Below are positions 818 to 61,223 of a DNA stretch of 64,000 nt, in pieces. The position numbers and the translations under genes were made by a program. The DNA comes from Marisa cornuarietis. Taxonomy: Eukaryota; Mollusca; Gastropoda; Architaenioglossa; Ampullariidae. The stretch is from NCBI GenBank assembly GCA_004794655.1, contig SMMW01000614.1, positions 1,738,501 to 1,802,500 on the forward strand, read 5' to 3'. Positions within the stretch are counted from its first letter, which is position 1, and each line of letters opens with the position of its first letter. The notes beneath the pieces were generated by a model. The model had not been told where the DNA came from. It saw only the letters and a list, made by a program, of their open reading frames with translations, and ran no database searches.

Positions 818-3250
818 ATGACTGATATTAGTGTACGAAGATATCATATTTTTGACAGCATACCTTTTGCAGCAGACCAGAATACTTACCAACAAATGGA
901 AATAGACACTGACAGCCCTTCTCGCATCCATAGAGAATCGGGTTGCATGGTACCCATAACTTCCGATCAAGATGACACAAGCAAAGTTGAAAGTCTTCAG
1001 GACCGAATATTTAAAATCCTCATCATTGGAACTTCTGGAAGTGGTAAGAGCACAGCTGGAAATATTCTTCTTGGCAAGAAGCGCTTTCAAGTGTCCTCAA
1101 AAGATAATCCCTTCACTTCCGAAACAGTGGCAGCCATTATTGGAGAAACTGACAGGGAAGGCAGACGTTTACAGGTGATTTGAGTTTTTATTAAGATCAA
1201 AATGTTTTTTCAAAAGCTCAGTTAATTTAATTAGTGCAACTCAGTGTGAGATTTTAAGACTCTCAATGCAATAAATACCGTATACGACTGTTTACATATT
1301 TTTAATTTATTATTTTTTTAATTTTTCTTTCTTTCTTTCCTTCTTTTTTTCTTTCTTTCTTTCTTTCATAGTGTTTACTCATTTATTCCATGCTTTATAG
1401 AACAAGAGGAGTACAACATTATTTCTTTATGATCGGGTTAAGCTCGTTTTAAATTATAATTCCAAAAATATGAGTGTATAATTATGCTTAATTTGAAAGA
1501 AATTACTCTCCTGTACTGGAGGTTTTCTTACACGATCAGAGTATTTGTAACAGCGAGTGCGCATGTCTTCAAGTCAAATGAGAAAACTTCGCTGAGGTTG
1601 TCGTCTTCAAGAAGCAATTTTTTGCCCCAAAAATAAAACAGCTGACTTTGGAATACAGCCCTACAGATTGAAACTTTATTTAGAAGCTTTGAATGAAGTT
1701 AAAAAAATAATTAAATGGTCCAAACTGAATTCATTCAACAGACTGGTAAGTCAATCAGATCAAAATTTAACGGGCAACAATAGTGACAACTGACTGCTGG
1801 GAGGATTTTTTTACAATTAAAAATATAATGATAGTTTGAAACATGTTTATTGATGTAAAAACTTATTTCTTCCTCATTTAACTGCATGCAAAATTTTCTA
1901 TTTACTTTCTGATACTCGCACGTGTTCCCGTTTAAGCTCATATTTATCACACTCACTTCTTTTTTCCCCTTTTTTAGCTACTTCGATGACGCACATCAAT
2001 TGTGCCCTCACACTGTCAGTTGTTGTTAGCATTCTGCTGGATAAAGATACGACTGATGATGTGTTTGTGACTGTCACACGATGTTACTTGTGGACCACAT
2101 AATCTAGCAACTGTTGATGTTGCATATCTGGTGCTTGATCTATCAGCAGTCGTAGTTGGTTTTAACATCTCGTGCTGTTGTATAGTCAGCTCTGCTGTAG
2201 GAATAAGATTTCTTCTTTTTACTGAAAGTGCAAGACTTGCTTGTACTGTATAAGTGACTGGATAGCAATCCATTTTGAAATGTTTTGAGCAAATTCTTGA
2301 GTGTGGTGTGGGGAAGAAGTTTGTACGGCTCGTTTGAACAAAGCAGAGACCTGTATATACACATACATACACATCTATACACATATATTATATACACATC
2401 TCTGAACAAAGTGATCCACTGGCGTTTGCTGCCATTATCTTTAGGATTTCCTTCATGAGTACAAACTAACTCCCTCTGAGTGTCGAAGAGAACGTTCAGC
2501 AACAGCACAATGTGTCCTGGTCAGTTTTCTTTTACCGAGGATTGCATCTTTTGTCTTTCACTTCAGCTCGTGCAGACAACACTATTTTTAGAAATACGTT
2601 CGTTTCGTCACTTCCTGTTTTCTCGACAAATCCAGGTGTGCTTTAGAGAAAAATATTACTATAAAATCTGTCATGCCTCTCTGTCATAAAATACCACCGG
2701 AACATGTTTTTGTGATACTTTGTGCTCTGTTTCCAGCGATTTTCGCTGAGCGGTCGCGTTGTCCTTTAACTAGAACAGTCTAACACCTACGTGGGAGATG
2801 TTCACTTTTGACTAAGTTGGAAATTCCCAAAAGTGTCATTCTTGCTGTTGTTATCTGTCAAGGTGTTAGACACGCCCGACATCTGCAGTGCAGTTTTAAA
2901 AAACGAATATGTGGCGAGATGGGAATTAGAAAGATGGCAAAAGATGTGTCCGGAGCCAGACCTGATCCTGTTCACCATTCGCTACAGTCCCGCTGACCTC
3001 CACACCACTCTATCGAGGTTCACTAGATTCAAGAGTCTATGGAAGGAGGACTTTATTCGGCAAAGGCTCGTGGTGCTCTTCACATTTGGAGACGAGGAAG
3101 CACTGGATGAAGAGAATTTCCAGAAGAATGCAGCTTTGCAGGAGATTTTTGACTATGCCGGCCATCGCTACATCATCTTCGACAACACACTCGGTGTCAG
3201 CGAGCAAGAGAAGCGTGTTGGCCAGGTCTTGCACTACCTCAATGAGTTAA
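818..3250 (+). CDS. Gene A, AIG1 domain 1 (exons 1-2)
   Basis: Exon 1 (818-1174) encodes an acidic N-terminus and the P-loop GTSGSGKST, ending at RRLQ before donor GTGATT. Exon 2 (2863-3250) opens VLDTPDI, so the G3 glycine is replaced by Asp. It continues with LILFTIRYSPADL, a diverged conserved box, and VVLFTFGDEE at the G4 position. It ends at NEL plus one base, before donor GTACGT. This is the most diverged of the four domains: the RCDVRYTAEE box present in the other divergent copies has degenerated here. If the donor at 3251 is skipped, a stop follows at 3259-3261, giving a possible short single-domain product. Confidence 0.72.
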
Positions 3251-6200
3251 GTACGTGTTGACCAGGTCTTGCACTACCTTGATGAGTTAAGTACGTGTTG
3301 ACCAGGTGTTCCTGTACCTTGACTAGTTAAGTACGTGTTGTCCACGTCTTGCAGATGAGATAAGTAGGTGTTGACCAGGTCTTGTGCTACCTTAATGAGT
3401 TCAGTTTTTGTTGTATCTCACTGCAAACAACGTTAATGTTAACAGATCTTCTATTTCATATTCAGCATATTTTAACGTTTCTAACAGTTAAGTTGTCAAC
3501 ACACCTGCATATATGTGCACGCATATCTATCAATGGGTTATCTTTTACCTGAGTATAATGAAGTCCCCTTATATCGGCCTTTAAATGCTAGTAAATGTAC
3601 TTTTGAATGTCCATGGGTGTGTTTTTTCAGAATCTGCAGAACGTAAAACAGATTTTAAGGGACAAGAAAAGGATGAGCACAATGTATTCACCCATGAACT
3701 CGGTCTTAAGGTGCTAATCATCGGCAAGACCGGTAACGGAAAGAGCACGGTGGGCAACTCCATTCTGAACAAGATTGTCTTTCCTGTCACCACTGGGCTG
3801 GCCTCGTCCTGTACAAAGGAAGAAATAAGAAGTGATTGTAGACAAGGCATTAACATTACAGTGAGATTTGGTTAAACAGATTTTACTTAGAGCTTTTAAG
3901 TCATTTACTTTGTTTCAAATTGTTAAGCTATTGGAGTTAAAAGACAACGAATCGGGCTGAGAAATGGATTATATTTATAGTCTGTAAGTAGCACACGTCT
4001 GGATATATTTATTTCAAGCTATTTCAGGAGTATTGTTAAGATGAATTGGAACTAAACTGAGATGCAAAGCAGTGAAAACTAGAAATGAATGAATGTATTA
4101 AAATAAGTAGAAGTGGCGTTGACGACAATAGTAGTAATTTTTTCCCTGGCATAATAAATATTATTTAACTGTTATGTTCTTGGATTTGTCTGAGGGCGTT
4201 GTAAATGCAATCTCATTAAAGGTGATTGAAACTCCCGACGTCAGCAACCTTTCTCTAGAAGACAAAGCTGCAGACGATGAAATCAAAAAGTGGTCGGAGT
4301 TCGATCCCGACCTCATCTTACTGGCCATTCGCTGTGACGTACGCTATACAGCAGAGGAACATGAGATTTACAAACAGATAAAAAGAGTTCTTGGGGAAGA
4401 ATATGTCTGCCCAAGGTTAGCTGTGGCCTTCACCTTTGGGGACAGCCTTAACACAGACATAGAGAATGAGTTGAAATCAGTTTATCCAGAGCTACAAGAG
4501 GTTCTGACTGATGCAAGACGTCAGTATATTGTGTTCGGCAATGGCGATCAAGAGGATCATAGAGAGAAACATCTTCGCGATATTTTCGACTTTGTGTCAA
4601 AGAAAGGTAACTTTCTTAACAATCTGCTGAGCATTTTAAAGAACATACACTTTTTTCTTCTAGCGATTGTGAATGGGTGTTATTGAGCATCAAAATAAGG
4701 GTTTCATGATATTCTTGCAGGAGAGATGTTCTTTAAGAATGCAGATTTGATAAACTCAGTAACATGTTTGGTGTTAATCGCACATGATTTGTAGTACTTG
4801 TGGGGTAAAGTAAGTTTGTCACCACGAATAGCTCATCAGTTCTCCAATGCACTTGAAATTGTGACATTTGTAGGGAAGCCGAAAAAGGATGCCGAAAACC
4901 TCCCATCAGAGTCCACACCTGAGTTGTCACAGGCCGACGGCCCGAACATCGGGGAAGCCAACATATTCCAAGACAGCAAGCGAGAAATCTCTTTATTTCC
5001 TGATGAACCACGTAAGTTTTGAGAGAGAAAGAGAAACATAGAGAGAGAAAGAGGAACCGGGGAGTTTGGGAAAGAGATATCATTAACCATAATAAATAAA
5101 TATTCTACAAATGATTTTATAGAACAAAACATTAACATACTGATCGTCGGCAAGACTGGAAATGGAAAAAGCACAGTGGGCAACTCTCTCCTGAACAACC
5201 CCGCCTTCACTGTCACTAGCGGTTTAGCTTCATCAACCACATGCCTTGAAACCAAATCAGCTCGAAGATACGGAGTCAACATTAAAGTAAGACAGTTATC
5301 GATAAAACTGTCAAATTTATTTGCAAAGATCACAGATCATAAAGACAAGCGTCGAAATTCTTTATTTTCGTGCGTATTACTTGTAATCTGATCGTGTCCT
5401 CGTCTTTAATTTACATGCCTGTGGTCTACTCAGAAAAGCATTGTAAGCTAAATTTGATGTGTATTCAATAGAAAATATATCAATCATGATGTACAATAAT
5501 TATTAAAATGCAATGTGGAATGTATGTAATATAATAAATATAATGTGCTCTTATTACAATTGAATGTAATTTATCAGGTGACTGACACTCCTGACGTCAG
5601 CAACATGCCTATCGATGACAATGAGGCTGACAAAGAAATCCAAAGCTGGCGGACATTACAACCTGATGTCATCTTGTTGACAATCCGCTGTGATGTACGC
5701 TACACACGAGAAGAGTTCCAGATTTATGAACAGATAAAGAAAGTTTTGAGAGATGACTACCTCTGCCCAAGGCTGACCGTGGCCTTCACCTTTGGTGATC
5801 GACTGGACAGAGACATCGGGGAGGAACTGGAGGGCGTGTGCACAGAGTTGCAGCAGGTACTGAAGGACGCAGACGATCGTTATCTTGTGTTTAGAAAAGA
5901 GGAGGAAGAAGAAAACAAAAGGAAGCATATTGCGCATCTGACGACTTTTGTGCCGAATCTTGGTACGTGTCCTTGATGTTGTTCTTGTTTTTTGTAAGTG
6001 GAAATAAGAATTGTAAATGTAAATCATAATTTGGATTAATATCGTATTCTGGCACGAACACTCCACTATACGTCCACAAGCCTCCACACACGCACGCACG
6101 CACATGCACACTTCCGCTCAGTACTACACACCCTCAAACACTGGTAAAAAAATAATCTTTGTAGTGAGTCCTAGAAACAAGATTTTCTGCATGTTTTTGG

Positions 6201-7395
6201 TAGTCCAGACAAAGTTCTAATGCAGTGGAGACTAGCGCCTGCAGTTCGCCCATGACACCGCCTATACGATGAGACATTATGGGGTAGCATAGGTCGGTGA
6301 CTCAGGCAACAGGCAATAATATTTTATATGAATAAACCAAGTGTGTTCTATTGTTCTATCTGGCATTACTCAGAGTACTAGTCTTGGTTTGCAGTTTGTT
6401 TTAAACAATATGCTCTCGTGTTTAAAAATTATGCAGGTACCATTAACACATCTTTTATAATAATCAGCAGAAACTGAGGGAGAAATAAAAAAGATTCTCC
6501 TCCTCGGACCCCCTAAAAGCGGTAAAAGTTCAGGTGGCGATGCCATCGTAGGCAGACCAGTGTTCAAGGCCGGCACAAAGACTGTCAGGTCAGCAACATA
6601 ACCGAGGTTAACGGCACGTGGTGCCAGGTGAGTCTTGAGCACAGCACTTTTATATTGTTCTTATGATACTCAGGTGACGCGTGTCTGGTATCGTTTGCGC
6701 TTTGCATAACAAAGTATCGAAATAGACCATCGCGGCGAATGTGTAATGGACTCTGCACTTCAGTTCTCCAGTTATTTCCCTTTTAACACACACTTAAAAG
6801 CTGTGAGCTCTCCTTGACAATATATCTGCACAATTCTGTTAAATCTAAGACATATTCAGTATATTAAACGAGTGTAATTGCCCACTAGGATAAATAAGGT
6901 TGGTCATTGTCATTGTCATCACTTGATTATTTGCAAATCCACGTAAAGATGCACCGAGAGAAGTACTGAAAAATAAGATTGCTGTAACAAGATTTTGTTT
7001 TTTCCTCGAAGGTATTCGATACACCGGGAATATCGAGTGCCGTTGAGGAGCAGTTAAGCAGCCTGCTTGAAGTGACGCGTCCCGGTCCACACGACATCTT
7101 CTATTTCGTCAGGGAGTCCGTCGCGGAGACTGAAGACCTCAAACTGTTCAGGCAATTTCAAGACTTCATCGGGGAGAGCGTAGGGCAGCACGTGATACTT
7201 GTTGCTACCAAGGATGAGGAGACGGTCTCTTATCTCCCAAAACATAAGCGAGTAAAAGACATGGAATACATTTTATGTGAAATGGATGAAGAGGCGAAAG
7301 GTGGCAAAACAGTTTGGCTAATTAAATATTTTACCTTCAAGGTAAAGAAAAAGATCTTTGCACAATACATTAAACATCTCTTTACGGCCACGTAG
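818..7395 (+). CDS. Gene A: four-domain tandem AIG1/GIMAP GTPase, nine exons
   Basis: Proposed exons are 818-1174, 2863-3250, 3631-3860, 4222-4606, 4874-5011, 5123-5286, 5578-5962, 6468-6627 and 7012-7395, all with AG/GT borders. Phases alternate 0,1,0,1,1,0,1,0 and match at every junction, so domains 1 to 3 join in frame without forcing. Each domain is a P-loop exon plus a G3/G4 exon. Exon 5 is a 46-residue polar linker. The spliced product would be about 863 aa, against 200-300 aa for a typical GIMAP. The start at 818 is the first ATG of the open frame, 63 residues before the first P-loop. Exon 8 carries a one-base frame break (see the domain 4 entry), so domain 4 may be lost or the reference may be wrong. 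The family binds guanine nucleotide and oligomerises on membranes; a role in immunity is inferred. The alternative is several adjacent genes, but the continuous phase matching argues against it. Confidence 0.72.
1319..1369. repeat. (CTTT)n tract in gene A intron 1
   Basis: An imperfect tetranucleotide tract. The rest of intron 1 (1175-2862) shows no further AIG1-like coding sequence. Confidence 0.8.
3215..3404 (+). repeat. 40-bp minisatellite that copies an exon end and its splice donor
   Basis: Five tandem units start at 3215, 3255, 3295, 3335 and 3368. Units 1-3 are exactly 40 bp; the last two are 33 and 37 bp. Unit 1 is the coding end of gene A exon 2 plus its donor (AGTTAA|GTACGT). Units 2 and 3 repeat the same donor at 3291 and 3331, while units 4 and 5 have decayed. 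Only the donor at 3251 precedes the in-frame stop at 3259. Confidence 0.9.
3631..4606 (+). CDS. Gene A, AIG1 domain 2 (exons 3-4)
   Basis: Exon 3 (3631-3860, phase 1 to 0) gives LIIGKTGNGKSTVGNS, a perfect P-loop, then TTGLASS (switch I region). Exon 4 (4222-4606, phase 0 to 1) opens VIETPDVSN, so both the first Asp and the Gly of DxxG are changed. It has IRCDVRYTAEE, VAFTFGDS at G4 and ends near DFVSKK. Reading through the donor at 4607 stays open to a stop at 4686 and adds a short hydrophobic tail, so intron retention could end the protein here. Confidence 0.75.
4874..5962 (+). CDS. Gene A, linker exon and AIG1 domain 3 (exons 5-7)
   Basis: Exon 5 (4874-5011) is a polar, Ser/Pro/Glu-rich linker with phase-1 borders on both sides. 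Exon 6 (5123-5286) encodes LIVGKTGNGKSTVGNSLL and TSGLASSTT. Exon 7 (5578-5962) opens VTDTPDVSN, then has TIRCDVRYTREE and VAFTFGDRLDRDI. Exon 7 is 385 bp with the same phases as the 385-bp exon 4, and the two proteins align without gaps, so domains 2 and 3 look like a recent internal duplication. Confidence 0.75.
6468..7395 (+). CDS. Gene A, AIG1 domain 4 (exons 8-9), with a frame break in exon 8
   Basis: Exon 8 (acceptor before 6468, donor at 6628) has a working-looking P-loop, GPPKSGKSS. In that frame a TAA follows at 6599-6601. The expected continuation ITEVNGTWCQ, leading into the splice, lies in another frame, so about one base is missing near 6580-6590. Exon 9 (7012-7395) opens VFDTPGIS, so the G3 glycine is kept. 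It has VILVATKDE at G4 instead of TFGD, and ends at stop 7393-7395. Domain 4 therefore belongs to the canonical class, unlike domains 1-3. The break could be real pseudogenisation or an assembly error. Confidence 0.6.
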
Positions 7396-10986: not shown

Positions 10987-11482
10987 CTAATTTACCTTTC
11001 GATGTGGAATGCGTAAAATGCGACTCAAAAGATCTTCAACGTTTCTGTCGACTTCAGTCTGTTGTGCATGGCAGTTAAAGACCACGTAGTTATTGTCGGC
11101 ATCATTCAGCACCTCCTTGAGTTCCTGGCACACATTCTTGAGCTCATTCTCAAACTGGCCTGGCTCCTGATCTAGCCTGTCACCGAAGGTGAAGGCCAGC
11201 ACCAGGCGATCACAGAAGTCAGGTCCCCACAGCTCTTTGATGTTCTGGTAGATGACGTGTTCCTCGGCGGTGTAGCGAACGTCGCAGCGGATAACCACAA
11301 CCACTCCTACCAGACACCTAGGGAAGTCTGCGGACTCTGGTAATTCGTTCCAATTTTTCCATCTGACCACTTCATGTTTTCTGTCAGCTTCAGACATCTC
11401 ATAGTTAAAAGGATCAAGAGTGTCGACTATCTGTAAACAGAATTTACATAAAATGCATCTTGCTTTTGGACAATAGGCGAGC

Positions 11483-11550: not shown

Positions 11551-12207
11551 GGAAAATTAAAGACAGTCACGCGCATGCAAAATGCAATTTTCACGTTTAC
11601 ACTCCTGAACACACAATAAAAATCAAGTTTTGCCTATCCTAGCTTTCATATAAAAGAGAAGCTTCAAAGAATACTATTGGAAGCACTTGTAATTGTACAG
11701 ATATCTGTTGAATGTTTTAGTCTTTGGTTTTCTTCAAAATTATTTCCTCTAAAGTATCGTTGTAAAGGGCAATAATCTTGCGTTTTTTCAGTTTAGATCA
11801 GTTATCTCCCTTTACCCACGTAGTCGTGCGTCCCTACCTCTCATGGTCATGTTTAGTAAGCATTAAAATGAGCATTAATTTCTTGTAAACCCAGTTTGAC
11901 AAACTCATGAGAGAAAAAATTCACCACACATTAGTCAGTTTGACACCTACTTTGCATGAGTTATAAACATTTTAACTTTACTTCAATGTCGGCTGCTTCC
12001 TTGAATCTGCAGATTGTCTCCAATGTCGTACTACTCATACCAGTTCCAACGGGAAATCTGTTGTCATGATGACCAAGAATGAGATTTGCAAGGGTACTTT
12101 TTCCATTCCCAGTCTTGCCTACGATGACAATGCGCGCCGGAGGCTTTTCAAGTTTTTCAAAAGATTCTGCATGAGAGTACGTTTAAATGATTAAATCCTT
12201 CTGCAAT

Positions 12208-15099: not shown

Positions 15100-16140
15100 T
15101 TACATGACGACACAGAACTCGTTACGTGTGAGAACTCTCGGCACAAAATTGAATAACCTGGAGATAAGTCCTTTATCTTTATCTTGGACAATATTTTCTT
15201 TAAGATCGTCGACACCAACGCCTGCCTTTTGTGCGCTTGTTGTTATCTCGTCGTCGAACTTCTTAACGAGTTCGTTAGAATAACAATCCTTGTTCTGGTT
15301 TTTGAGATTAAGGACGCTCTTGATCAGTGTGTCTCTCTCCATATCCTTGCAGAACTTGTTTTCGAGGTCTTCGCTGAAACATACGCACCTGTCTCCTGCT
15401 TCGCGCATGACTCTGACCAGGTTGGGAGGCAGAGGTTTATCGGTATTTTTTTGAGCAGCCTTAAATTCCTCTTCAGTGATGCGAGTCAGGACCAGAATCA
15501 TGTACTTTGTCATTTCGTTGCCGAAAACGGATTTTAGATTCTGGAACGCCTCAAACTCCTCCTTCGTAAACCTATCGCTTCCTCTAACCACGAACAAGAT
15601 GGCGTCAGGTCCAGGCACCATGGTGGCCACACACTTGGCGATTTCTCGCTCTACTTCACCTGGAAGTTTGTGAGTGTCACACACTCCTGGCGTGTCGGTT
15701 ACCTGGAATTCAAGCAAGTGAAGTAACTACGAACAGTCAGGCAGGCAGACAGAGGAACAAGCAGACAGACATAAAGGCAAAACAGAACTCCCTAAAGTCC
15801 AATACAAATACACAACAAGACTTCAAAACTGACTAATAACATAACGATATAGTGATACTCATTTATATTTATTGTGTTATTGTACATCGGTTTAAACAAT
15901 TATTTGTAATATGCGTAACCTGCACAAGTTGCATAATGCTAAGCCCATCCAGAAAGTTACAAGAATGTTAACAGAATAAACCAACCTCAAGGACAACGGT
16001 GTTGATTGAGACTTTTTTCCACCCACATTTGTCTGTCCCCGAACTCAGTCCACTGTGCTGTTCAAACAGTTCTTGTTACCCGTCGTGCTTTTTCCATTTC
16101 CGGTTTTACCGATCAGAATCAGGCGTAGTGTGGTGGGCAT
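15100..16140 (-). pseudogene. Gene C: canonical GIMAP with CaaX end, frameshifted after the P-loop
   Basis: Exon 1 is 16140-15986 and exon 2 is 15702-15100. Exon 1 starts MPTTLRLILIGKTGNGKST. It then hits a stop in frame, while the expected GLSSGTDKCGWKKV continues in another frame; its 155-bp length is one base short of a multiple of three. By alignment to gene I, roughly five residues around NAILG are also missing. Exon 2 is intact: VTDTPGVCDTH (G3 with glycine), then VVRGSDRFTKEEF and LVLTRITEEEF. A charged C-terminal region ends CVVM, a CaaX prenylation box. The acceptor lies directly before the ATG, as in gene I, implying an upstream non-coding exon. Either a recent pseudogene or a sequence error. 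Confidence 0.75.
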
Positions 16141-20724: not shown

Positions 20725-20950
20725 ATGAATTCTGCACGAAGTGCGCAAAGTGAATCTCGGTGTGAGGAACGCTTGACAATTGTTTTATTTGGCAAAACTG
20801 GGAATGGGAAAAGCAGTGTGGGCAACATCATCCTCAGCACTTGGGGGTCAGATGGGCCATTTACGGTTGGAAGCGGGCTGGCCAGCATAACTGAAAAGAT
20901 CGAACAGATATTAACGATGCGTAAGGATATTGAGGTACGCACATGTCCTA

Positions 20951-22596: not shown

Positions 22597-23233
22597 CACT
22601 AGCACTCGCTGCAAATTATCAGCTCATGCCAATATTTTCCCAGCCTATTATAATGGGTAGTCCGCTTTAGTTTCCTCTTTACTTGGTTCTGCATTATGCT
22701 CTAATCTAATTCCCTTCTGTCTTACTTTACAGGTCACTGACATACCCGACTTTACCAATCTTCAAGTGGGCGGTGATCAAATCAGAAAGGAAATAAGTAG
22801 TTTGAGGAAACGTCTCACCAACACCCGCTACGCCGTGCTCTTGGCGGTTCGCTGTGATGTTCGCTTCACAGAAGAGGAATATGACATTTATAAACAGTTC
22901 AAGAGTCTTTGGGGAGAAGACATTTGTAGTCATCTGATTGTGGCCTTCACCTTTGGAGACAGATTAGAGCGTGAACTACACCAAGAGCTCCAGACTGTGA
23001 ACACCGAGCTGAAAAACTTGCTAAGTGATGCCGGGCAACAGTACGTGCTTTTCAACGACAAGAGCGACAAAAAGGCCAAGAAAATACAGACAGAACAGCT
23101 TTTGAAAATAATCCAACACCTCCCACGACAAAGGCAAGACGTGGGAATTATAAAACCGCCTCCTAAGGATAATACGAAACCTAGACAAAACGTAGACTCA
23201 GACAGCACTGAACAATGTTGTCAGTTAATGTGA
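20725..23233 (+). CDS. Gene D: divergent GIMAP-like GTPase with C-terminal CaaX box
   Basis: Exon 1 is 20725-20934 and exon 2 is 22733-23233, joined at phase 0, giving 236 aa. Exon 1 has VLFGKTGNGKSSVGNIIL and VGSGLASIT. Exon 2 opens VTDIPDFTN, so G3 reads DIPD and lacks the glycine. It has AVRCDVRFTEEEYDIYKQF and VAFTFGDRLERE, then a basic, proline-containing tail ending EQCCQLM. The last four residues form a CaaX box, with a second Cys that could be palmitoylated. Poly(A) signals AATAAA follow at 23259 and 23279. The intron holds a repeat copy and a 105-bp (GAT)n tract. This is the only divergent-class gene here with a prenylation-type end. Confidence 0.88.
21540..22020 (+). repeat. Repeat family 3, copy 1 (partial), in gene D intron
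   Basis: Homologous to 42330-42780 and, inverted, to 44640-45090. Landmarks are GACCACCTGTCTGTCAT, GTAGCTATG, TGACCAATCG, GAGAGAATGAT and CTGATCGCAGTCCGGCCTTG. It ends at GTGGCACGCGG, short of the other copies. Confidence 0.85.
22492..22596. repeat. (GAT)n microsatellite, about 105 bp
   Basis: Roughly 33 perfect units in the gene D intron, ending 136 bp before the exon 2 acceptor. Confidence 0.97.
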
Positions 23234-27005: not shown

Positions 27006-27681
27006 CTACAACGGCCTATAGGGAGGATTTCTATTCCAGGCCTGGATGAGACCCCGAAAACAGTCATATACAGCCTGTAGGATCCACATTATAAACAAAA
27101 ATATGGATAGTAGAAATATGTACACAATATATACACATCCTTCACAAAAATCCCACAGTGTATTTTGGGGTAAGTTCTCAATTGTTTTCCATAACTTTCT
27201 GACTGCTTCTTCATTCTCAGAGCTCGCTGGTCCGTGGAACAGGACGTACCTATTCGAGGCATCCGTCAACACGCTTTTTAGTTCGGGACAGACAGTCCTG
27301 AGTTCCTCATCAATGTCACGGTCTTGCCGGTCTCCAAAGGTGAAGGCCACCACAAGCCGCCGACAAAGGTCGTCACCCCATATCTTTTTCACTTGCTGAT
27401 AGATGGCGAACTCTTCGGCCGTGTAGCGAACATCACAGCGAACAGCCAGCAGAACGGCGTCTGGGGGCGACTGGGGGAGGTCCCTCCACCTCTTCACTTC
27501 TGCTTGAATTTCAGCGAACGTGTGATACTGATTGCTAAGGTCAGGTGTGTCGGTCACCTGCATTAGGCAAAAGGAAACCCAGAAATGATCACACAAGCAT
27601 CATAATGCAAAAAGAAAAATGTGTATTCAAATGTCCAAAAGTCTGAACTGAATTGATAGGGTCGAAATGCATACACACACA

Positions 27682-27761: not shown

Positions 27762-28604
27762 AAACGAGCATATCATACTAAAGATGTAAATAATGTGCTG
27801 TATTCATTGCATAACAATTTATGAGCTTGAAATTCTCTAATAAATAAAACAAACAATCAATCAACAAACCTATCAACCCACCAACCAATCATCCAACAAA
27901 TCTACCAACCAAATAACCAACAAACCATCCAACCAGCCAACCAGCCAGCCAGCCAGCCAGCCAGCCAATCAAATAGAAAAAGTAAATTTATGCAAAAACG
28001 AAGCAAGAAAAGAGAAGCCATGATGTCATTATTTTACTTTCATATTATAGGTCTTCTACTTTTTTTGTCTTACTAGCTGGGCTCTGGGCATGATATTCTT
28101 CTTCAACATGTGAGTGGATTTCTCCTTTTCCTTCTTGAATTAAAAATGTACTGTAGCATATCTTTAAATTCCACGCATTCAGATACCTTCAAAGCAAATG
28201 TCCACGCGATGAGGCTAGAAAGCTGATATGACATGTGTTAATAGAGTAAAGAATCTGAACTTCAAGGTCTTCATCATAATATTGTCTCTTGTCCCATTTT
28301 ACATGTCACTGAGAAGCAATATCTTATAAATCAATTAACTTTGTAAAAGAAAGCAGAAGTGAAGTCTGAACTCTAAAAGTTTCTACTGAGATGAAAACTT
28401 CGCTGCTGGTGACAATCTTACTTCAATAGTCCTGCCATTACTGAGTGAAGATCTTGTTGCCGTGGATACCGTCGTACACGCCATTCCAGTCCCAACAGCA
28501 AACGCCTTCTGGCAAAGGATGCTGTTCCCCAGAGAACTTTTACCATTTCCAGTTTTACCGATGATCAGAATTCTTGTCGTCGAATGTCCATGGTTCGAAC
28601 TCAT
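27006..28604 (-). CDS. Gene E: divergent GIMAP-like GTPase with C-terminal membrane helix
   Basis: Exon 1 is 28604-28422 and exon 2 is 27557-27006, joined at phase 0, giving 244 aa. Exon 1 starts MSSNHGHSTTRILIIG and continues with KTGNGKSSLGNSIL and VGTGMACTT. Exon 2 opens VTDTPDLSN (Asp for the G3 Gly), then AVRCDVRYTAEEFAIYQQV and VAFTFGDRQDRDIDEEL. After the GTPase core, a segment of about 23 hydrophobic residues (VYIVYIFLLSIFLFIMWIL) near residues 205-227 should anchor it in a membrane, with a short positively charged tail. An acceptor-like GCGCAG lies just before the start at in-frame phase. An upstream frame with its own hydrophobic segment stays open to 28829, so a longer N-terminus is possible. 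Confidence 0.86.
27671..27758. repeat. (CA)n/(CGCA)n tract in gene E intron
   Basis: Alternating purine-pyrimidine DNA in the intron between the P-loop and G3 exons of gene E. A CAAC/CAGC-rich simple repeat follows at 27852-27970. Confidence 0.95.
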
Positions 28605-34334: not shown

Positions 34335-35817
34335 TCAATAATGAGCACCACTCGTGTAATGCAAAGTTCTTCGACTTTGTGTCCGGGCTTCATACCGACA
34401 CCCTAGTAACAGCACGGCTATCGTGAGACCGAACAACCCGAGACCGATCGCTAGACCCAGATGATCGAAGACGCCAGCAACGACACAGCCAACTGCGGCG
34501 AGAAAGGCGATGACCAAACACACCACGGACACTCTGATGCGGACTCGTTTCGGCGACCTGTCAGGCAGTCTTACGATTCTGAGCAGTTTATCCACTTGCT
34601 GCTTTTTGTTGGGGTCCTGTGAACGAAAAACAGGAGTACGTTGTTCAAACGTTCAAATAACATATTCAAATATTCAGAGCATAGCACGCTCACACATGCA
34701 CACAGGCACTAAAACACACAAGGAAAAAAACACTAAATTTTAAAGGGGAATCTAGTTGCCGAGCGGTCCGAGGCGAGAGGCGCACGTAAGCGATTCGATA
34801 CCTGGGTGGGCCGTGTGGGCCGTGACGGTCGTGTGGGTCGTTTATACTTTACACACTTAAAACGGTTGCTGAACAGGTACCTGAACAGGTACACACAATA
34901 CTTACCTGTTTGTTGAAGAGCACGTAGCGGTGTCCAGCGTCCTTCAAGACACTCTTCAGCTCGTTACACACACCCTTCAGCTCCTCATCGAGGTCTTTGT
35001 CCTTCCTGTCACCAAAGGTGAAGGCCACAACCAGTTGGCGCTTGATGCTGGAGTTGTCTCCCCAGAGACTCTTGAACTCCTTGTAGATGGCGTATTCCTC
35101 GGCCGTGTAGCGCACGTCACAGCGCACGGCCAGCAGAATAGTCGGGTAGCCGGGTGACGTCAGCGCCTTCCACTTCAGAATCTCCTCCCTCCTTTCAGCA
35201 GGACTGTAGTTGAGGTTAATGATGTCTGGCGTGTCTACCACCTTAACGACATGAACACATTTTCTTCAAATCTTTTGAAAAGAAAATCGCGTCTTATCTA
35301 CTATGTGGTGTAAAAAGCTTTCACACACACGCACTTACATGTACACATGTACACGCACGCACATATCATAACCTGAAATAGAAGAACGGCTTTTCAAATT
35401 AGCATCGTATTTTCAAGGCAAAATAAAAATAAAAAAGGAAACCAGCTGAAATCCCACACACATGAACAAGAAGACAGATATACAGATGAATTCAAACAAA
35501 TTTTGTTTTTGAAGATAAAAGAATTAATGAGAGAAAAAATATGCGAAAAAAAATGTCACCGAGAGGGTGACCACAAAGAACACGAATGAGAACACGACAA
35601 AGAACACGATAAAGAATACGACAAAAAATTTTAAGTGCATATAACCTACCGTTATAGTTACTTCGCCTCTAATTCTGGATCTTTTCTCAGCTCTCTTTGT
35701 TGTTGGAGTCATGCTAGCACCAGTCTGGAAGTCATCATTTCCTAAAAGACAATTTCCCAGACTGCTCTTCCCATTGCCTGTCTTCCCAACAACGAGAAAG
35801 ACGTGACTGGAGGCCAT
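34335..35817 (-). CDS. Gene G: divergent GIMAP-like GTPase with two-helix membrane tail
   Basis: Exons are 35817-35650, 35241-34906 and 34616-34335, all joined at phase 0, giving 261 aa. Exon 1 starts MASSHVFLVVGKTGNGKSS. The frame upstream to 35853 has no ATG, so the start at 35817 is preferred. Exon 2 opens VVDTPDIIN (Asp at the G3 Gly), with AVRCDVRYTAEEYAIYKEF and VAFTFGDRKDKDLDEEL, ending VLFNKQ. Exon 3 encodes a basic linker, then two hydrophobic helices (about VVCLVIAFLAAVGCVVAGVF and LGLAIGLGLFGLTIAVLLLG), then a basic tail. This should form a membrane hairpin at the C-terminus. Exon layout matches genes H and J. Confidence 0.9.
34757..34806 (+). mobile_element. tRNA-like SINE remnant in gene G intron 2
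   Basis: GTTGCCGAGCGGTCCGAGG resembles a Leu/Ser tRNA A-box and GCGATTCGATACCTGGG a B-box. Short and decayed, so not a functional tRNA. Confidence 0.4.
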
Positions 35818-39570: not shown

Positions 39571-39928
39571 TTACATAAGCATGGCACAGTTTAAATAGGT
39601 GAGAAATCTTTTTCTGTAAACATAGGCGAAGGTACCAACAACAATCACTACAAAGATAACGAAGAACACTGGAGTTTTCACAATGTTAGGTACCCAAGGG
39701 ACACCAAACCAGAGAGCAGTGCTAAAGATGGTGGCGACAAACACAAGTAGCAGCTGCAGCAGCAGCAGCTGCAGCTGTTGTTGGTTGCAGGGTGGGTTAG
39801 AAGGTGGCTGGGCCATACGCTCTAGAATACCTAGCAGCTTTCGTACCTCACGTCCACTGTCAAAAGCCTGTGCCACACATAGAATTAATTAAATTAGTGC
39901 ACCCATGAAATAACATGCATAAGCTAGT

Positions 39929-39985: not shown

Positions 39986-41776
39986 GGAACATCGAACAGC
40001 CGGAGAGACAGAAACACAGACAGTATGTGAGCTAAGAGCTAATCATTTTGTTCAAATAACAGAGTGGACCACGGACGTGTATAGGTGGACAGACGACTCT
40101 CTGACGAGATCAGCGGTTAGCCTCTTGCAAAGTTCTCCACTATTAGTCTTGGCGAGCTTCAACAATGAATGTGACTAAACCGAAAGTATTTTTTACACAA
40201 AAGCCTCGTTCCAACCGTTAACTGAAAAAAATCGTCTGCATGCAGTCCATATCTGCTTATCGCATGCTGTAGGCGCTTTCTCCACTCATCTTACTCCACA
40301 CTCACGCAAAGTTTAGGCAAACGCATAAAACTTTTTCCCCGGCTACTAGCACTGATGTACTGCACAATGATACACAACAATCTGATCCGCTAGAACATTT
40401 TTTTCCAAGTGAATGATTGAAGTGCTCGATTCCCCCATTATCGAAGGTAGCGCCGGAAGTTGCTATAACCCAATGCGCGAACGCAACCGGTTTTCACGCT
40501 TTCCAGCGCAGGCGGCCAAGATGCTACTCCACTAGTAATATAACTCCGTGGAGTGGACCAACAACAAATAAATACAAGCATACAATCAAGTAAATAAATA
40601 TAAATGCATAACATGCAATTCTGGCACTAACCTTTTTATTTTAAACCATAGTAATAAAATGTTTTTATGATATACGTTAATAAATTAAATTACATAATAA
40701 AACTCTTTATAAAATGTGTTTGTCAACAGTATCCTTTGACGAAGACATTCAATGATAAACAAAAAAAAAAGAAAAGAAAGAAGAAAGAAATTGTGATTGA
40801 ACCCTCATGTCTGCGTCTATTCTAGGTTCAGTGACTCAGCATTCATATTTTTATAGGAGTTGAGAAATAAATAGTAAACTAAAAATAGCTGATGATTTCT
40901 TTTGTTCTAAGTGGCAAATACCTGGAGACTTATGCCTTTAAGCAGTTGACAAAACAAAGGGTGAAACCGACGCGCAGTAGAAGCTGACGAGGATTTTCTC
41001 TTTCTAGTTCATAAGCCAGGTAGTCAAAGATTTTACACAGTGTATACCTTGTTGTTGAAGAGGACGTAGCGGCCCCCAGCATCAGCCAGCACACTGCGCA
41101 GTTCCCAGCAAACTGTCTTTAACTCCTCATGAATGTCTCTGTCCTGCAGGTCTCCAAAAGTGAAGACCACCATCAGGTGACTTGTAAATGAGTTGTTGTC
41201 TCCCCATGCTCTCTTGATTTTCTTGTAGATGTCGTATTCTTCCGCCGTGTAGCGCACGTCACACCTCACCGCTACCAAGATGGCGAATTTGCCGACAGCC
41301 AGAGACTTCCAGCGGGCGACTTCGTCACAAATTTCTGTATCACTGAGGTCGAGGTTCACAGGCTCAGGAGTGTCGATTACCTGCAAGAATGTCACGGAGA
41401 AAAGGGCCACCAGTTGCTTACCTGTGTTATGGTGTGAGATGTGACTCAGTAGATAGGTTTCAGATAGTGCACGTGTGTTTATTAATAGTGCGTGTATATA
41501 TATATATATATGTTGTGCGTGTGCGTGTGCGTGCGCGCCTTTTCTGGTACATTTACTGATTGATTTCAAGTGGCGGGGCGAGGTTATTAATGTCGAGTCG
41601 TCTGACGATACCTTAATTTGCCTTCCATTGACCACGCCCACAGCTTGAGACATCCGCGTGGTTCCTGAAGCCATGCCGGTTGACACTTGGAACTTGGGTT
41701 TTCCCAGAATTCGGTTTCCTACAGAACTTTTACCGTTTCCAGTTTTTCCAACGATAAGCAATGTGATTTCATCCAT
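39571..41776 (-). CDS. Gene H: divergent GIMAP-like GTPase with membrane tail
   Basis: Exons are 41776-41612, 41380-41048 and 39867-39571, all joined at phase 0, giving 264 aa. Exon 1 starts MDEITLLIVGKTGNGKSSVG, with VSTGMASGTT. An AG acceptor 26 bp upstream, in phase 1, would allow an extra N-terminal exon as in gene B. Exon 2 opens VIDTPEPVN, with Glu at the G3 Gly, then AVRCDVRYTAEEYDIYKKI and VVFTFGDLQDRDIHEEL, ending VLFNNK. Exon 3 has a Gln/Leu-rich stretch, then two hydrophobic segments (around LLLVFVATIFSTALWF and VFFVIFVVIVVGTFAYVY) and a basic end. A 138-bp alternating purine-pyrimidine tract lies just upstream of exon 1. Confidence 0.88.
39932..39982. repeat. (CA)n microsatellite in gene H intron 2
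   Basis: About 25 dinucleotide units just upstream, in the gene sense, of the membrane-tail exon. Confidence 0.95.
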
Positions 41777-41800
41777 GTTTATGGTTGTGGAGTCTTCTAA

Positions 41801-41875
41801 GCACACACACACACACACACACACACGCGCGCGCGCGCACGCACACGCACAGACACAGACACGCACACGCACGCA

Positions 41876-41939
<64 letters not shown>
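41801..41939. repeat. (CA)n/(CG)n/(CGCA)n tract next to the gene H start
   Basis: About 138 bp of nearly pure alternating purine-pyrimidine, including a (CG)n core at 41826-41838. It lies 25 bp upstream of the gene H ATG, in the promoter or 5' UTR intron. Confidence 0.95.
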
Positions 41940-41940
<1 letters not shown>

Positions 41941-42219
41941 ATGCACACACATTTATATTTGTTGAGAGAAAGAATAAATCATGTCATAACTAGGTGGCGA
42001 TAGGGTATCAGTCGGCTTTGGTACCTTAATTAACGGCCGCGTATCTCCCTGGGATCACCTAGGTCGGTGCTGCTGGCCGCTTACGTCAGCCCTAGCGCAG
42101 GGCAGTTATCGCTGCAGGGGATCTTCAAAGAGGAGAGAATGGCACTGATCATAGGCCAGGATGCGAATGTTAATTGTAAGGCTGCGGTGTACGTAGTGCA
42201 GGACAACAGCACGTGTTTT

Positions 42220-47738: not shown

Positions 47739-48807
47739 TTACATTACTGAGCAAAGGGTTTTGTTTTGTGATACATGTTCTGGAACAGCTTCGGATAAAG
47801 TTTGTAAGAGCTTCTTATCTTGTTCGGTAACAATTTCTTGCTTCACTTCATCAACATTAACTCCCTTTTCGTTGGCGTTATCGTTCATTATTTGATCGTA
47901 TTTCCTCACGAAGCTGTTGCTGTAGAACTTCTTGGTATCTGCCATGAGCTTATGGACAAGACTCAGCAAGTATAATGCATCTCTTTGTCGAGTTTCCTCC
48001 TTGTCACGTGCATCAGGACTAACACACGCAAACCTAAATGAAGCCTCGTGCAACAGTTTGATCAGCTTAGGAGGAGGAGGTCGCTCTTGATTGGCCAAAT
48101 ATTCCTTAAGTTCTTCGAGCTCTATCGCGGTGAACACTAGTATTAAGTGCTTGGTCAGGTCTTCTCCAAATACTTCCTTCAGATCCACGTAGGCCTTATG
48201 TTCTTCGTCTGTGAAGCGCCTCTCGCCGCTGATTACCAGGAGAACAGCATCAGGTCCAGGGGTCATTGTCGCCAGGCACTTGCCGATTTCTGTTTGAATG
48301 TCCTGTTTACCACGATGAGTATCACAAACTCCAGGTGTGTCCGTCACCTGAAATCAGAAAGATTTAATGGCATATTTTACATGTTTGTTTCTACTAAGCA
48401 CACGAATACAATGCAATTATGATGCTTTAGTAAAACTAGTCAAATTGAACAAAATATGCAACCTATTTATGTAAAGTATAAATATATAAAGTAAATATAT
48501 TTAGAAACAAACGATGTAGTTCTACTGATAGAAATATGTATATATTAAATATTAAATGTATATATGTATATATAAATATTTGTGTGTGTGATTTGTCTAG
48601 CAATAGCGTGTACACTATAGCGTAAGCACTAACCTCGATGGTGAGGTCGTCGACAACAGTTTTGTGCCACGAGCACACCTGTGTTCCAGAACTTAAACCT
48701 CTGGAAGGTTTACAGAGCTTCTCCCCAAGAATAGCGTTTGCTGTTGTACTCTTGCCGTTGCCAGTTTTTCCAATAAGAATCAGACGAACAGTTCTGCGAG
48801 ATGCCAT
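47739..48807 (-). CDS. Gene I: canonical GIMAP with CaaX end
   Basis: Exon 1 is 48807-48634 and exon 2 is 48347-47739, joined at phase 0, giving 260 aa. Exon 1 starts MASRRTVRLILIGKTGNGKS and has TTANAILG and RGLSSGTQVCSW. Exon 2 opens VTDTPGVCDTH, an intact G3, followed by PGPDAVLLVISGERRFTDEE (the conserved box) and LILVFTAIELEEL at G4. The C-terminal 90 residues are charged and probably helical, ending KTLCSVM, a CaaX prenylation box. The splice acceptor abuts the ATG (TTCAG|ATG), implying a 5' UTR exon near 49.1-49.2 kb. It is the intact sister of gene C and the only intact canonical GIMAP in the window. Confidence 0.92.
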
Positions 48808-52375: not shown

Positions 52376-52549
52376 GTACATCTTTTCAAACTCTGCTCTC
52401 TAGAGAGACGTGCCGTACTTTCTTTGTTCAGAAAGTGAAGTCTTTTTTGTATTTGATGTTTTCATGATTTTTTTTTATTTCGATAAACATTTGACAAGGC
52501 AGCAATATCAGTGTCGAGGAGAGTGACTATAGCAAGCGTTTCGAAAAGA

Positions 52550-54370: not shown

Positions 54371-54482
54371 CATTGAGCGTACTTAACTCAGTACTGACTG
54401 AAAACAAAAATCTTTTTGTAAATTGAGAGGGACTTGGTTCAGAAATCTTGTCCCCTTCAATACGTCATCAGGTGCCGCGATG

Positions 54483-56101: not shown

Positions 56102-56169
56102 CTAATAGGGGTACTAGGAAGACTAAACAGAAGACAAAGAACACCAGAGCAAGTTGTTGTTATCCTTCG

Positions 56170-56900: not shown

Positions 56901-58546
56901 GGAAACCTCAAGGTGGCACATTAAGCACAAGGACGAAGATGCGCATTAACAGACTCAATTACGCTATAAGCTCAGACCGTTCAACATGAGACCCATAACT
57001 TAAAGGTGTGTGCATATATATTATATATATATATAGATATATATACACACAGGCTTCGTGTTAACAGATAATAATTACAGAACGAAGGCACTGAGAATAG
57101 CACACTGTGCAATACACAGTACCTTACAAACACATTTTGTTCGCTGGTAAAAGGCAACAGAACAATATTACAACTTGTTCCGGTTAAATTTCTAAAAAAA
57201 TGGATTTTTATACGAATAAATTCTGCCCAAGTATATAAGTGTTACCAAGTAGATGTGTGTACCTACTTCTGAAGGTAAGGATTAAGGCTGCGGAATGCGT
57301 ATGCAGCGTTGAAACAGAGAAACACGAGGAGAAACCTTGGTGTCCTGTTATCACACAGCAACAACCACAGTTTAATATCGCAGGGATCTTGTACTCACCT
57401 CAGATTCGGTCTCCCTTCAACTTACCCGGATTAAAGTTAGACTGTTGTTCCACTTCACATACTTGAACCCCAAACACCCTTGTTCCTGCTGGAAAAGGAG
57501 TGTTGACATTACAAAGTACGGACTGTCAGTACTAGGTAGCAGACTTCATGGTATTTCTGCACTTAATCATTTTCGTCCGGGTTATTGTTGTTGTCGCTGC
57601 TGCAATCCTGATGTGGATTTTTGCCACGCAACTGCCGTTAGATGGGATGGTTCTCATATTCTTAAAAACTCATTCAGTATTCCACTCGATTAATTAATCA
57701 AACACCAATCGCTCCTCTCATTCAGCTCTCCTCTTTGTTGATGATCCATCCATACTCAAAAACCTTCCTCCTATCAACCTAGACGACAATGCATGCACAT
57801 CTACAAGATTTATCCCACCAGAACAAGCAGATATAAAAGGTTATTTGTTTTATTTCCACTTTATATTAATTAAGAACAAGGAATTAAGTTTTTTTGTAAC
57901 TTAGAAAAAAAGAACATGCGCCTACGTAGTGAAGAAATCTCCAACGACAGAAAATAGCCAGTCATAAAGAAAAAATTGAGAATTCACAGCAAAACATTGA
58001 GAATACTAAATAGATTGAAAAAAACAGAGCAACGCTGAATTGAAGAAAGCAAAGTATATATTTCTTTTTCGTGTATATTCTTGAGTATAAACTATCACAA
58101 CTATTCTGTCATGCTATTTAAACAGCAATTTAAACGTTTCAGATGAGAGAAAGAGATAGAGAGAGATAACAGATAAAACCTCTTCTAGTCTTATCTAAAG
58201 GCAATATAAATAATATCTTTTGCAAATACAGTGTAGTACCAAAAAACCCCAAACCGATGAGATACATGTGCAGCAGTGTCCTGTGGCATGTAGTAAGATT
58301 TTCATGAGTAGTACTGGGTACACAGTTGCTCATCACGAGGTTCACATTGTCACATGGATCATGAACCTCCTTCCCGTATTTGACAGTTGAACCTGCATTA
58401 ACTACAATCGCCGAAGTCATGATAAGTCACATACTCACAGAGAGAGAGAGAGAGAGTATGTGTGTGTGTATGTGTGCGTGCGTGCGTGCGTGATCATTAC
58501 AGTTTGCCATACTGACGAATCACTTTAATGTGACTTTCATAAACGT
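56901..58546. other. No gene recognised
   Basis: AT-rich DNA with short (AT)n runs near 57019-57050. The open frames at 57239-57466 and 57445-57693 show no known domain. The 3' UTR of gene J should lie just below 58547. Confidence 0.45.
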
Positions 58547-61223
58547 TTATGCATCACGACACCACTTAAGCAGGACGAACAAAGCTGGAGGAGTAGACAA
58601 CAGCACGAGTCTTATTCTTGTTGGTAGTCGCCTCGAAGCAACAGCAATACCAAGAAAAGCTAAAACATATAACCAGTAACTTTTTATATTAAACGTAGGA
58701 GCTGGAGGTGAAGGTGGAGGTGTAAGTGAAGGTGAAGGTGAAGTTGAAGGAGGAAGTAGAGGCGTCAGAGGTTTTTTAATTCTTGAGATGAGTATTTTTA
58801 CTTGTTCCTCCATTGCTTCTTTTGAAGCCTGTAATTTAAAAAAAAACATCTGAAGCATAACATGCGTTTTTTCCTGCTGGTTAGAATTTAACTTGCTGGA
58901 AAAAGGTCGATGAATTTCATAAAGTATTGGTAAAAGTGAATAATTATGTATAAGACAAATGTTCTAAGTGTGAAATCTGTCTGAAAGAGATACAAATACA
59001 AACTTTGAGTGTTGAGACAAACTCCTTACTATGTCGCACCTTCTATCCACATCACGTTAGTTTAAGTGTAATTCGTTGTTGAAGTTAAGGGGCTTTTGCT
59101 ATTTTCCGAAGATTACCGAGGCTGGACTAAATAATCCGACAGCATGTAATGCCGGAAGTTGCGCGCCTTTTCAAAGGCGATACGCGGTGTACAGACAGTG
59201 CTTCAGCCAGCAAAACAACTTCCAAAAAAAATGGCAATATAGTCTGATGTTCAACCTTACCTCTTTGAACCTATCGATGAACAGATAGGCCTAGAAACAA
59301 TTAACCAATAACGGCCAATGAAGTCGATTGTCTGGATAATATCGACCAGGGACCAGTTGCACAACACATTTCTAATTTTAAACACTTTCAAGCCTCAAAT
59401 CTATTTAGTAGTTAGTTTAAAGTGCAGACCACAATTTTAGAATTTTTAAAACTAAAACTGCTTTAAGTAAGATAAAGTTGTTGAAGTCTGACTTTCCGTC
59501 CTGTCAGTACAGTTTTTTGTATGTTCTTGTGCAATGCATATAAATGATAAAGAAGAGAATTTGCTTCTTTAGAACAGTTTTAAGGTTTAGAAACATGTTG
59601 TGCAACTGTCCCCCGTACGTTTTGTGATGGCTGATATTCCACTTTAAAAATAATTTATTATAAAAAGTTAATCGTTTCTTAAAATATTCTTCATCCACTA
59701 TAAAACTCACTCTCGCTGCAGCGAAACTGCAAATCTATTTCTTTGAACGCCATTTTGCAAGATAAAATATACATGTGTTAATGTGCCGGTGTAAAGCTGA
59801 ACTACAGCGTTTATAGCAGAGCTTCTAGCTAGAACCTGCCGCAATATATTATTTCTATTAAATTGTAGGTAAACATGTGACTTTTGCGAGCTATTTGACA
59901 GCAAGGAAGAAAGCTGCTGCTATGCACAAATTCTGAGGTGTATAAAAGTTCTTGACTTTAGGTAAATGTGTATGTGTAGGTACAGTGAAGATAACACTTA
60001 AAATGTACCATGGCCGCCTGCAACTACCTGTGCAACAGGGCAAATACAAGACTGGCGCCCCCTCCAAACTTCTCTCTTTCACCCGTGGGTGGTTGGTTGG
60101 TTTGATGAGAGGGTTAATGTGCCTTGGGTGCCCAGTAGATAGAGGATAGCGCTGACTGTGCGGCTGGAATCCACCTAGTGGGAGGTTTGGTGCGGCCCCC
60201 TCTTTTTTCGCGCTGACCCCTCCGTCTTCTCTGGACAACACAACCTTTCGCTGTCAACCAGTGGGTCTACAAGCATGTACGAAATTACTAACAATTAGAG
60301 ATACTTACAACATTGTTGAAAAGGACGTAGTTGTCATTGGAGTCTTTCAGGACGTTCTTCAGTTCCGGACATACAGTCTTCAGCTCCTCGGCCAAATCTT
60401 TGTCCTGCCGATCCCCAAATGTGAAGACAATGATGAAATTATCCAGAAATGATTTATCTGCCCACGCTTCCTTTATCTTCCTGTATATTTCGCACTCTTC
60501 GGCTGTGTAACGAACATCACACCGCACAGCCAGCAAGATGGCGGATGGGAAAGGTGCAGTCATCTGCTTCCACTTCTGGATCTCCTTCTTTGTGTCCATA
60601 TCGGAGTTGACTGGATCTGGAGTATCAACTACCTGTGTAACACAAGATCATTTTCAAATTAGAACAGTCCAGTTAAGACTATAATTACAACTATCGAAGT
60701 GAGTGATTTTCAACATTGAATAGCCTGTCTTACGGTGGCGGACGTACTAGTCGTTGGGATAAAATGATAAAGACGACAACTACGACGATGATAATAATGA
60801 GGGAAAAGAGGAAAGTGAAAGAAAGATATGACGGTAAGCAAAGATAAATGAAGTATAAATTCAAACTTGTCAACACCAACAACAATAATAATTGTGTTTA
60901 TGATCATGCAGTTTTGTGGTTGAATTTTCTTCCTGACGCAGAAGTTGCATGTAACTAATCGAAAACTTGATGCGGAGTATATAACTAAAATTACTGAAAA
61001 CATAGATCGACTAAATAATTGGACAAAATAAATAGTTTCTTGCCTACCGTCCATAGACAATTATCTTTCTGCAACTTAGCTGACTGCACTTGGAGTGTTG
61101 TAGAAGCCATTATACTACCAACTGCAAACTCCTGCTGACCAAGAATTGCGTTTGCAGTGGAACTTTTTCCATTTCCGGTTTTGCCAATAATGAGTATTCG
61201 GTATTGTTCTTTCTTGCTGTGTT
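58547..61223 (-). CDS. Gene J: divergent GIMAP-like GTPase with Pro-rich linker and membrane tail (first exon not located)
   Basis: Exons are 61223-61048, 60632-60309 and 58828-58547, about 259 aa without the N-terminus. The P-loop exon begins at a phase-1 acceptor (GGGCAG|AACACAGC), with no ATG in frame before the core, so a first coding exon is missing. A phase-1-compatible donor, GGTG|GTGAGT, lies at 61557 and is a candidate. The core reads ILIIGKTGNGKSSTANAIL and VGSIMASTT. Exon 2 opens VVDTPDPVN (Asp at G3), then AVRCDVRYTAEECEIYRKI and IVFTFGDRQDKDLAEEL, ending VLFNNV. Exon 3 encodes a helical segment, a proline-rich linker (PSPSLTPPPSPPAP) and two hydrophobic stretches (YWLYVLAFLGIAVA, VLLSTPPALFVLL). 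The layout is as in genes G and H. Confidence 0.83.
59352..59608. mobile_element. MITE family 1, copy 3, in gene J intron
   Basis: Both termini are present: CCAGTTGCACAACACATT on the left and ACATGTTGTGCAACTG on the right. Best-preserved match to copy 2. Confidence 0.85.

Follow-up and report, generated by a model that had tools for sequence, protein, structure and literature searches.

We analysed a 64,000-nucleotide stretch of the 534 Mb genome of Marisa cornuarietis (contig SMMW01000614.1, here C490, positions 1,738,501-1,802,500; hereafter the window), which carries an array of genes for GIMAP/AIG1 GTPases. In 9 of the 12 GIMAP domains in the window, position 4 of the G3 motif (DxxG) is an acidic residue instead of glycine; the remaining three are DxxG. 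In our trees the DxxD/E copies are one large clade of caenogastropod GIMAPs that spans sea and freshwater snails. We lean towards reading this clade as membrane-anchored scaffolds locked on GTP, in which turnover would depend on the help of a DxxG relative.

The first-pass annotation of the window had listed nine acidic G3 motifs, all of which were found again: DTPD in domains A1, A3, E, G and J, ETPD in A2, DTLD in B, DIPD in D and DTPE in H (letters denote genes, numbers the domains of gene A). C, I and A4 retain DTPG, as listed. The accompanying motifs were also described correctly: the P-loop is GKTGNGKS in every acidic window domain except A1 (GTSGSGKS), and G4 reads TFGD in 9/9. The P-loop of the DTPG domain A4 (GPPKSGKS) also deviates. 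The same annotation had tied the acidic G3 to an RCDVRYT-type box in every copy but A1. The box is there (RCDVRFT in D), but its RCD part is not specific to the acidic class: DTPG copies in the array carry RCDQRFT, RCDRRFT or RCDKRFT, and one DTPG copy on C445 has RCDV. The RCD box was therefore dropped as a mark of the class. The G1 P-loop and the conserved (R)YT/FT box are present as in the GIMAP/AIG1 family, except that A1-type domains lack the arginine of the box. Six of the seven window exons submitted exceed the 27-bit cut-off of Pfam AIG1 (PF04548), with 42.2 to 96.9 bits, A4 falling below it at 21.7 bits; six relatives score 65 to 211 bits. An NCBIfam scan returned mainly general GTPase models, none above its own cut-off.

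Among the matches listed, AIG1 exons on C490 span approximately 1.61 to 2.02 Mb, an array of about 0.4 Mb, and a second AIG1 cluster lies on C410. C490 was read fully at 1.600-1.862 Mb and 1.876-1.8895 Mb, and around profile matches elsewhere. The DNA read contained 77 G3-exon pieces, 67 of them on C490; 21 incomplete pieces were set aside, of which ten still showing G3 were restored and 11 stayed unscored. Of the 56 domains scored in the C490 array, 34 carry an acid at G3 and 22 have glycine. The 34 thus depart from the DxxG of GIMAP/AIG1 proteins, which is not family-defining because human GIMAP1, GIMAP2 and GIMAP5 also lack the G3 glycine. On other contigs, where the list holds about 52 G3-type matches, 30 domains were read: 29 have glycine and one has DSPD. 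Position 2 of G4 is Phe or Tyr in 33/33 readable acidic array copies versus 0/13 readable DxxG copies, and in 139/144 readable acidic rows overall versus 0/47 readable rows in a DxxG set of 59. By these counts the G4 aromatic is a cleaner partner of the acidic G3 than the RCD box. The putative arginine-finger residue is kept in 26/34 acidic and 20/22 DxxG array copies, and in 118/145 readable acidic-class domains overall. A1-type domains have lost it as well and are likely to be pure GTP-bound or regulatory domains.

The first-pass annotation had named scattered, unrelated DxxD copies as the outcome that would sink its proposal; the phylogeny instead gave one clade. In the main tree, built without the G3 and G4 motifs, four columns each (129 rows, after dropping 12 of 141 for want of a readable G3), all 86 acidic snail rows fall on one side of a single branch (support 99/96; 98% of 200 bootstrap trees). 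No glycine row lies inside the clade, and one DTPN row (P0018) lies among the acidic rows. The clade is common to Pomacea, Batillaria, Babylonia, Littorina and Nucella. With only about 100 columns, the tree supports its inner forks weakly. A wider tree, thinned to 126 rows (80 of 147 acidic-class, 46 of 54 other), in which the bootstrap had not settled, keeps 79/80 acidic-class rows together (99/89). A tree from the P-loop exon requires two changes for 32 acidic rows, a single change sufficing in 6% of bootstrap trees; of the labelled rows, only two degenerate A4 P-loops fall among the acidic ones (fork 89/94). In view of the single clade, we rejected the idea that the DxxD copies of the C490 array arose in scattered places.

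The acidic residue is strongly constrained. Among 148 acidic-class domains (34 from this genome and 114 from proteins, selected by D, E or N at G3 position 4, near-copies included), this position is D in 145, E in two and N in one, and the column has the third lowest entropy of 108. The codons in the array are GAC (21), GAT (12) and GAG (1). Taken together, the single clade and the rarity of E and N are a pattern beyond chance. The Glu of H looks like a late variant, since a sister copy about 90 kb away carries DTPD. The first Asp of G3 is kept in 142/148 domains, and the G4 acid, by which known GTPases recognise guanine, is Asp or Glu in 143/144 readable acidic-class rows. We also calculated the ratio of nonsynonymous to synonymous substitution rates (dN/dS) for ten duplicate pairs, a set without C and H in which dS is below 0.1 in seven: B 0.19, I 0.22, J 0.29, A3 0.37, G 0.50, D 0.68, A2 0.74, A1 0.85, E 1.81 and A4 3.08.

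The acidic G3 has a human precedent. In alignments to solved structures, G3 is DTPD in human GIMAP1 and GIMAP2, DTPS in GIMAP5 and DTPG in GIMAP4 and GIMAP7. The snail VRYT arginine aligns with that of the human GRYT box, which we take to be the arginine finger, R103. Numbered after the title of 3zjc (L100Q), the GRYT arginine becomes residue 103 and the glycine of G3 residue 66. At the alignment level the snail acidic class has both GIMAP2 features, an acid at G3 and this arginine. GIMAP2 and GIMAP5 are described as GTP-bound without hydrolysis on their own; GIMAP7 promotes hydrolysis by GIMAP2, GIMAP4 has GTPase activity, and GIMAP1, 2, 3 and 5 are membrane-associated (PMC8201404). GIMAP4 is also listed with a putative membrane segment (PMC3100574), and the help given by GIMAP7 to GIMAP2 has been ascribed to an arginine finger (PMC8066113). 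DTPD was not seen among the papers listed by a literature search on the GIMAP DXXG motif and switch II, a set that excludes the GIMAP2 structure paper PMC2996681. In our tree, human GIMAP1 and GIMAP2 lie inside a human clade (98/93), and a forced grouping of the two with the acidic rows from snails is worse by 35.6 log units (approximately unbiased test, p 0.027, nominal as the group was named after the tree was seen). A single origin with human GIMAP1/2 was rejected on the tree and this nominal test, and the human and snail acidic G3 motifs look independent.

The two snail classes also differ at their C-termini. We scored a tail helix as 19 residues with a mean hydropathy of at least 1.6, and CaaX-like ends by a loosely defined pattern. 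The count covers 47 complete, single-domain acidic proteins taken to be gastropod, by assumption where no source is named: 29 have a tail helix, another five have a CaaX-like end alone and 13 have neither. All eight DxxG proteins have a CaaX-like end, two of them with a hydrophobic stretch as well; this count includes P0127, possibly a chimeric gene prediction (77% match of the first exon to gene H). In the window, the tails of E, G and H pass the helix rule. C, I and D have no tail helix and end in CVVM, CSVM and CQLM, and a similarity search did not find the tail exons of A and B. The snail DxxG class is predicted to consist of prenylated GIMAPs. Since AIG1 proteins of Arabidopsis are already stated to be prenylated (PMC6866125), this feature as such would be no novelty. 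CaaX-like ends seen in the DxxG class are CVVM, CSVM, CAVM and CTVM (window 15103-15711 and 47742-48353; P0066, P0123, P0127, P0128, P0132). The bat GIMAP7-like proteins P0133, P0134 and P0135 have CaaX-looking ends, CTIL or CSIL.

Structure models, one per class, show the GIMAP fold; the acidic-class model fits GTP-bound GIMAP2 best and the DxxG-class model fits GIMAP7 best. AlphaFold confidence at residues 61-70 (91 acidic, 68 DxxG) was dropped as evidence because the underlying alignments differ in depth (42 versus 19 rows).

The backbone of the G3 glycine contacts the gamma-phosphate and allows the movement of switch II. An acid at this position would set a charge near the gamma-phosphate, and together with the GIMAP2 analogy this would favour a state that holds GTP and hydrolyses it poorly. 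Snail acidic GIMAPs are likely to hold uncut GTP, because human GIMAP1 and GIMAP2 share the change. Assembly on membranes would proceed through the C-terminal tail and GTP turnover through a DxxG partner. The working model is the human pair of GIMAP2 (DTPD, membrane-anchored) and GIMAP7 (DTPG, arginine finger): the snail proteins would bind GTP, lack intrinsic hydrolysis, dimerise through the nucleotide face and be activated in trans. Every step beyond the acid at G3 is one that we infer for snails. The earlier suggestion that these proteins may bind GTP and hydrolyse it poorly agrees with human GIMAP2, whose G3 is likewise DTPD and which is reported to bind GTP without hydrolysing it alone (PMC8201404), with the qualification that residue 100 is a second difference among the human proteins. 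Its alternative, a new use of an acidic switch, is not needed, as human GIMAP1 and GIMAP2 already have an acidic G3.

Several observations weigh against GTP-locked scaffolds. The glycine may not be the cause, because residue 100 splits the human GIMAPs equally well: it is Gln in GIMAP1, GIMAP2 and GIMAP5, Leu in wild-type GIMAP7 and Pro in GIMAP4. The acidic proteins with neither a helix nor a CaaX-like end show no anchor by our simple test, and the tail of J, at 1.52, falls just short of the 1.6 rule. The dN/dS values of the acidic pairs are not uniformly low (0.19 to 1.81, some with small dS). The Z margins of the acidic-class model over other GIMAP structures are small (1.1 over 2xtm_A, 1.7 over GIMAP7), and the difference in alignment depth bears on this comparison too. 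Several array DxxG copies, the presumed partners, carry unusual G4 boxes (TRIT, TAIE, TATK) and could be poor guanine binders. Finally, an acidic G3 appears to arise also in degenerate-looking copies: the exception in the wider tree, domain three of Pomacea P0086 (NTPE), lies among degenerate A4-type domains, and the lone DSPD copy L055 (C410:1,885,500-1,886,200), in neither tree, has TRGD at G4 and HYT in place of RYT. L055 thus has His at the finger-arginine position, and two TGA codons lie inside its profile match. The G4-end acid is absent from some DxxG copies, with TRIT, TGIT, TRVT or TGIS (window 15103-15711; C490:1,650,572; C490:1,959,781; C48:889,846).

Three other explanations were weighed. 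The acidic domains could be active GTPases in which the acid tolerates hydrolysis and the kept arginine catalyses in homodimers, so that the change tunes only the rate or the choice of switch II partner. The retention of the arginine in most acidic copies speaks for this, but human GIMAP2, with DTPD and the arginine, is reported not to hydrolyse GTP alone (PMC8201404), and we regard such activity as unlikely. We give somewhat less credence still to degraded pseudo-GTPases, in which the acidic G3 would mark lost nucleotide binding and the domains would serve only as protein-interaction folds. A1-type domains would suit this idea, lacking the finger arginine and having GT or GA for GK at the second P-loop residue (though GKS is kept), as would the degenerate A4, the dN/dS values near or above 1 in some pairs and the two isolated, degenerate-looking copies with an acidic G3 that fall outside the clade. 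Against it stand the near-complete retention of the first G3 Asp and the G4 acid and the P-loops, which are mostly GKTGNGKS; moreover, relaxed decay would not preserve one residue in five named snail genera as the third most conserved of 108 columns. A shift in nucleotide specificity through the G3 Asp and the aromatic at G4 is improbable: the two changes do occur together in 33/33 readable array copies, at a G4 position that is basic in humans, but the G4 acid is kept in nearly all acidic rows, and it is certain DxxG copies that are without it.

GTP-locked membrane scaffolds served by DxxG activators, in a second and convergent split, thus appear the best reading. A bolder version, which we put forward tentatively and hold to be rather less probable than not, is that snails and mammals independently built the same two-part GIMAP machine, in which membrane-anchored, locked scaffolds without the glycine work with a DxxG activator, with the snail scaffolds expanded, the G4 aromatic packing the locked GTP and some genes fusing both domains. 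In P0081 (Nucella) and P0085 (Babylonia), an acidic domain is joined to a DxxG-type domain through a partly conserved linker; these two neogastropod records share 54% identity across 540 columns, some of which lie in the linker, and their second domain is degenerate at G4. The apparent DxxD-DxxG fusions P0078, P0106 and P0112 were left out because they are possibly merged gene predictions. GIMAPs have been linked to the survival of immune cells. With its glycine-to-acid change and a comparable division by membrane anchor, this second and apparently independent lineage is a natural replicate. It can separate the G3 residue from human residue 100, because the aligned snail position is Arg in 85/86 acidic rows, Cys in one and Gln in none (the alignment is approximate owing to a nearby insertion). 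Whether the G3 glycine is the hydrolysis switch of GIMAPs becomes a directly testable question, and a large invertebrate immune-type family may consist of long-lived GTP-bound scaffolds.

In these GIMAP genes the P-loop exon is separate from the exon covering G3 to beyond G4. Gene A, on the forward strand, has P-loop and G3-G4 exons at 1010..1180 (approximate bounds) and 2863..3258 for A1, with PADL at the lost finger position; at 3618..3863 (similar to Pomacea P0075) and 4216..4683 for A2; at 5125..5289 and 5578..5973 for A3; and at 6464..6630 and 7006..7392 for A4, where the P-loop exon (similar to Pomacea P0096 and P0120) has frame shifts within the homologous stretch and the G3-G4 exon a degenerate G4 and no arginine finger. 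A2 and A3 have VRYT. Gene A is very likely a single four-domain gene, because Pomacea proteins span its consecutive domains: A1-A2-A3 (P0075), A2-A3-A4 (P0096) and A3-A4 (P0120). A 40-bp tandem repeat (five copies, 76% matches) at 3214-3405 overlies the end of the A1 G3 exon and repeats its last codons.

D is also on the forward strand (P-loop exon 20725..20949; G3-G4 exon with VRFT and the CQLM end 22727..23230). All others are on the reverse strand, and the acidic ones among them have VRYT. B has its G3-G4 exon at 10990..11450 and P-loop exon at 11979..12170. The G3-G4 exon of C (15103..15711) encodes DRFT, TRIT and the CVVM end, and its P-loop exon (16019..16137) has a broken reading frame, while the duplicate at C490:1,655,703-1,655,912 is open; for this reason C is probably a pseudogene or the site of an assembly error. 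E has G3-G4 and a hydrophobic C-terminal helix (hydropathy 2.74) in one exon (27009..27569), with the P-loop exon at 28407..28604. G has a tail exon with hydrophobic, transmembrane-like stretches (34362..34646; 2.93; 65% to Pomacea P0015), a G3-G4 exon (34906..35247) and a P-loop exon (35647..35817). H is organised likewise (tail 39574..39870, 2.46, 45% to Pomacea P0035; G3-G4 41045..41386; P-loop 41609..41794), and one stop-free frame of 316 amino acids at 41036-41983 extends from a CA repeat across the P-loop exon, the intron and the G3 exon. I has its G3-G4 exon, with RRFT, TAIE and the CSVM end, at 47742..48353 and P-loop exon (GKTGNGKS) at 48628..48807. J has its hydrophobic tail exon at 58550..58843 (63% to Pomacea P0021), G3-G4 exon at 60303..60647 and P-loop exon at 61045..61224.

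Parts of the window adding up to 17.7 kb have counterparts in the flanks with 79-92% identity, counting matches of at least 700 bases. A further DxxG class on C490 has an apparent extra intron splitting the domain after the conserved box (C490:1,721,424; 1,727,572; 1,734,650; 1,810,900; 1,817,844; 1,824,775; 1,965,132). Of the named proteins, those of Pomacea canaliculata come closest (62% over the E exon), followed by ones from Batillaria, Babylonia and Littorina, with Nucella relatives added by a wider protein search; Pomacea, Batillaria, Nucella and Littorina are Caenogastropoda.

Among known systems, RGK GTPases likewise have an acid in place of the G3 glycine (DXWE) and switch non-canonically (PMC4081519). 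They belong to the Ras superfamily and have Trp at G3 position 3, whereas the snail copies are AIG1 domains; RGK membership is ruled out by the DTPD, ETPD, DIPD, DTLD and DTPE motifs and the Pfam AIG1 match. The AIG family of Biomphalaria glabrata is a similarly expanded gastropod AIG1 family with TxGD at G4, but its G3 is reported as DxPG, and the Pomacea expansion is noted as separate (PMC7053062). The main text of that paper mentions neither DTPD, TFGD nor hydrolysis. GIMAP8, with three G domains (PMC4201521, PMC3100574), resembles gene A in having several AIG1 domains per chain, but the chicken GIMAP8 match P0121 has DTPG in both domains read. Human GIMAP7 and GIMAP4 (DTPG) are the working-model counterpart of the snail DxxG class; their G4 is TRKE or TRKD, whereas many snail DxxG copies combine a divergent G4 with a CaaX-like end. 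Human GIMAP2 and GIMAP1 differ from the snail acidic class in G4 (THKE/TRKE versus TFGD), in the box (QLG versus RCDV) and, by the tree, in origin. They share with it the AIG1 fold, the DTPD G3, the arginine of RYT/RFT and a C-terminal membrane anchor (PMC8201404).

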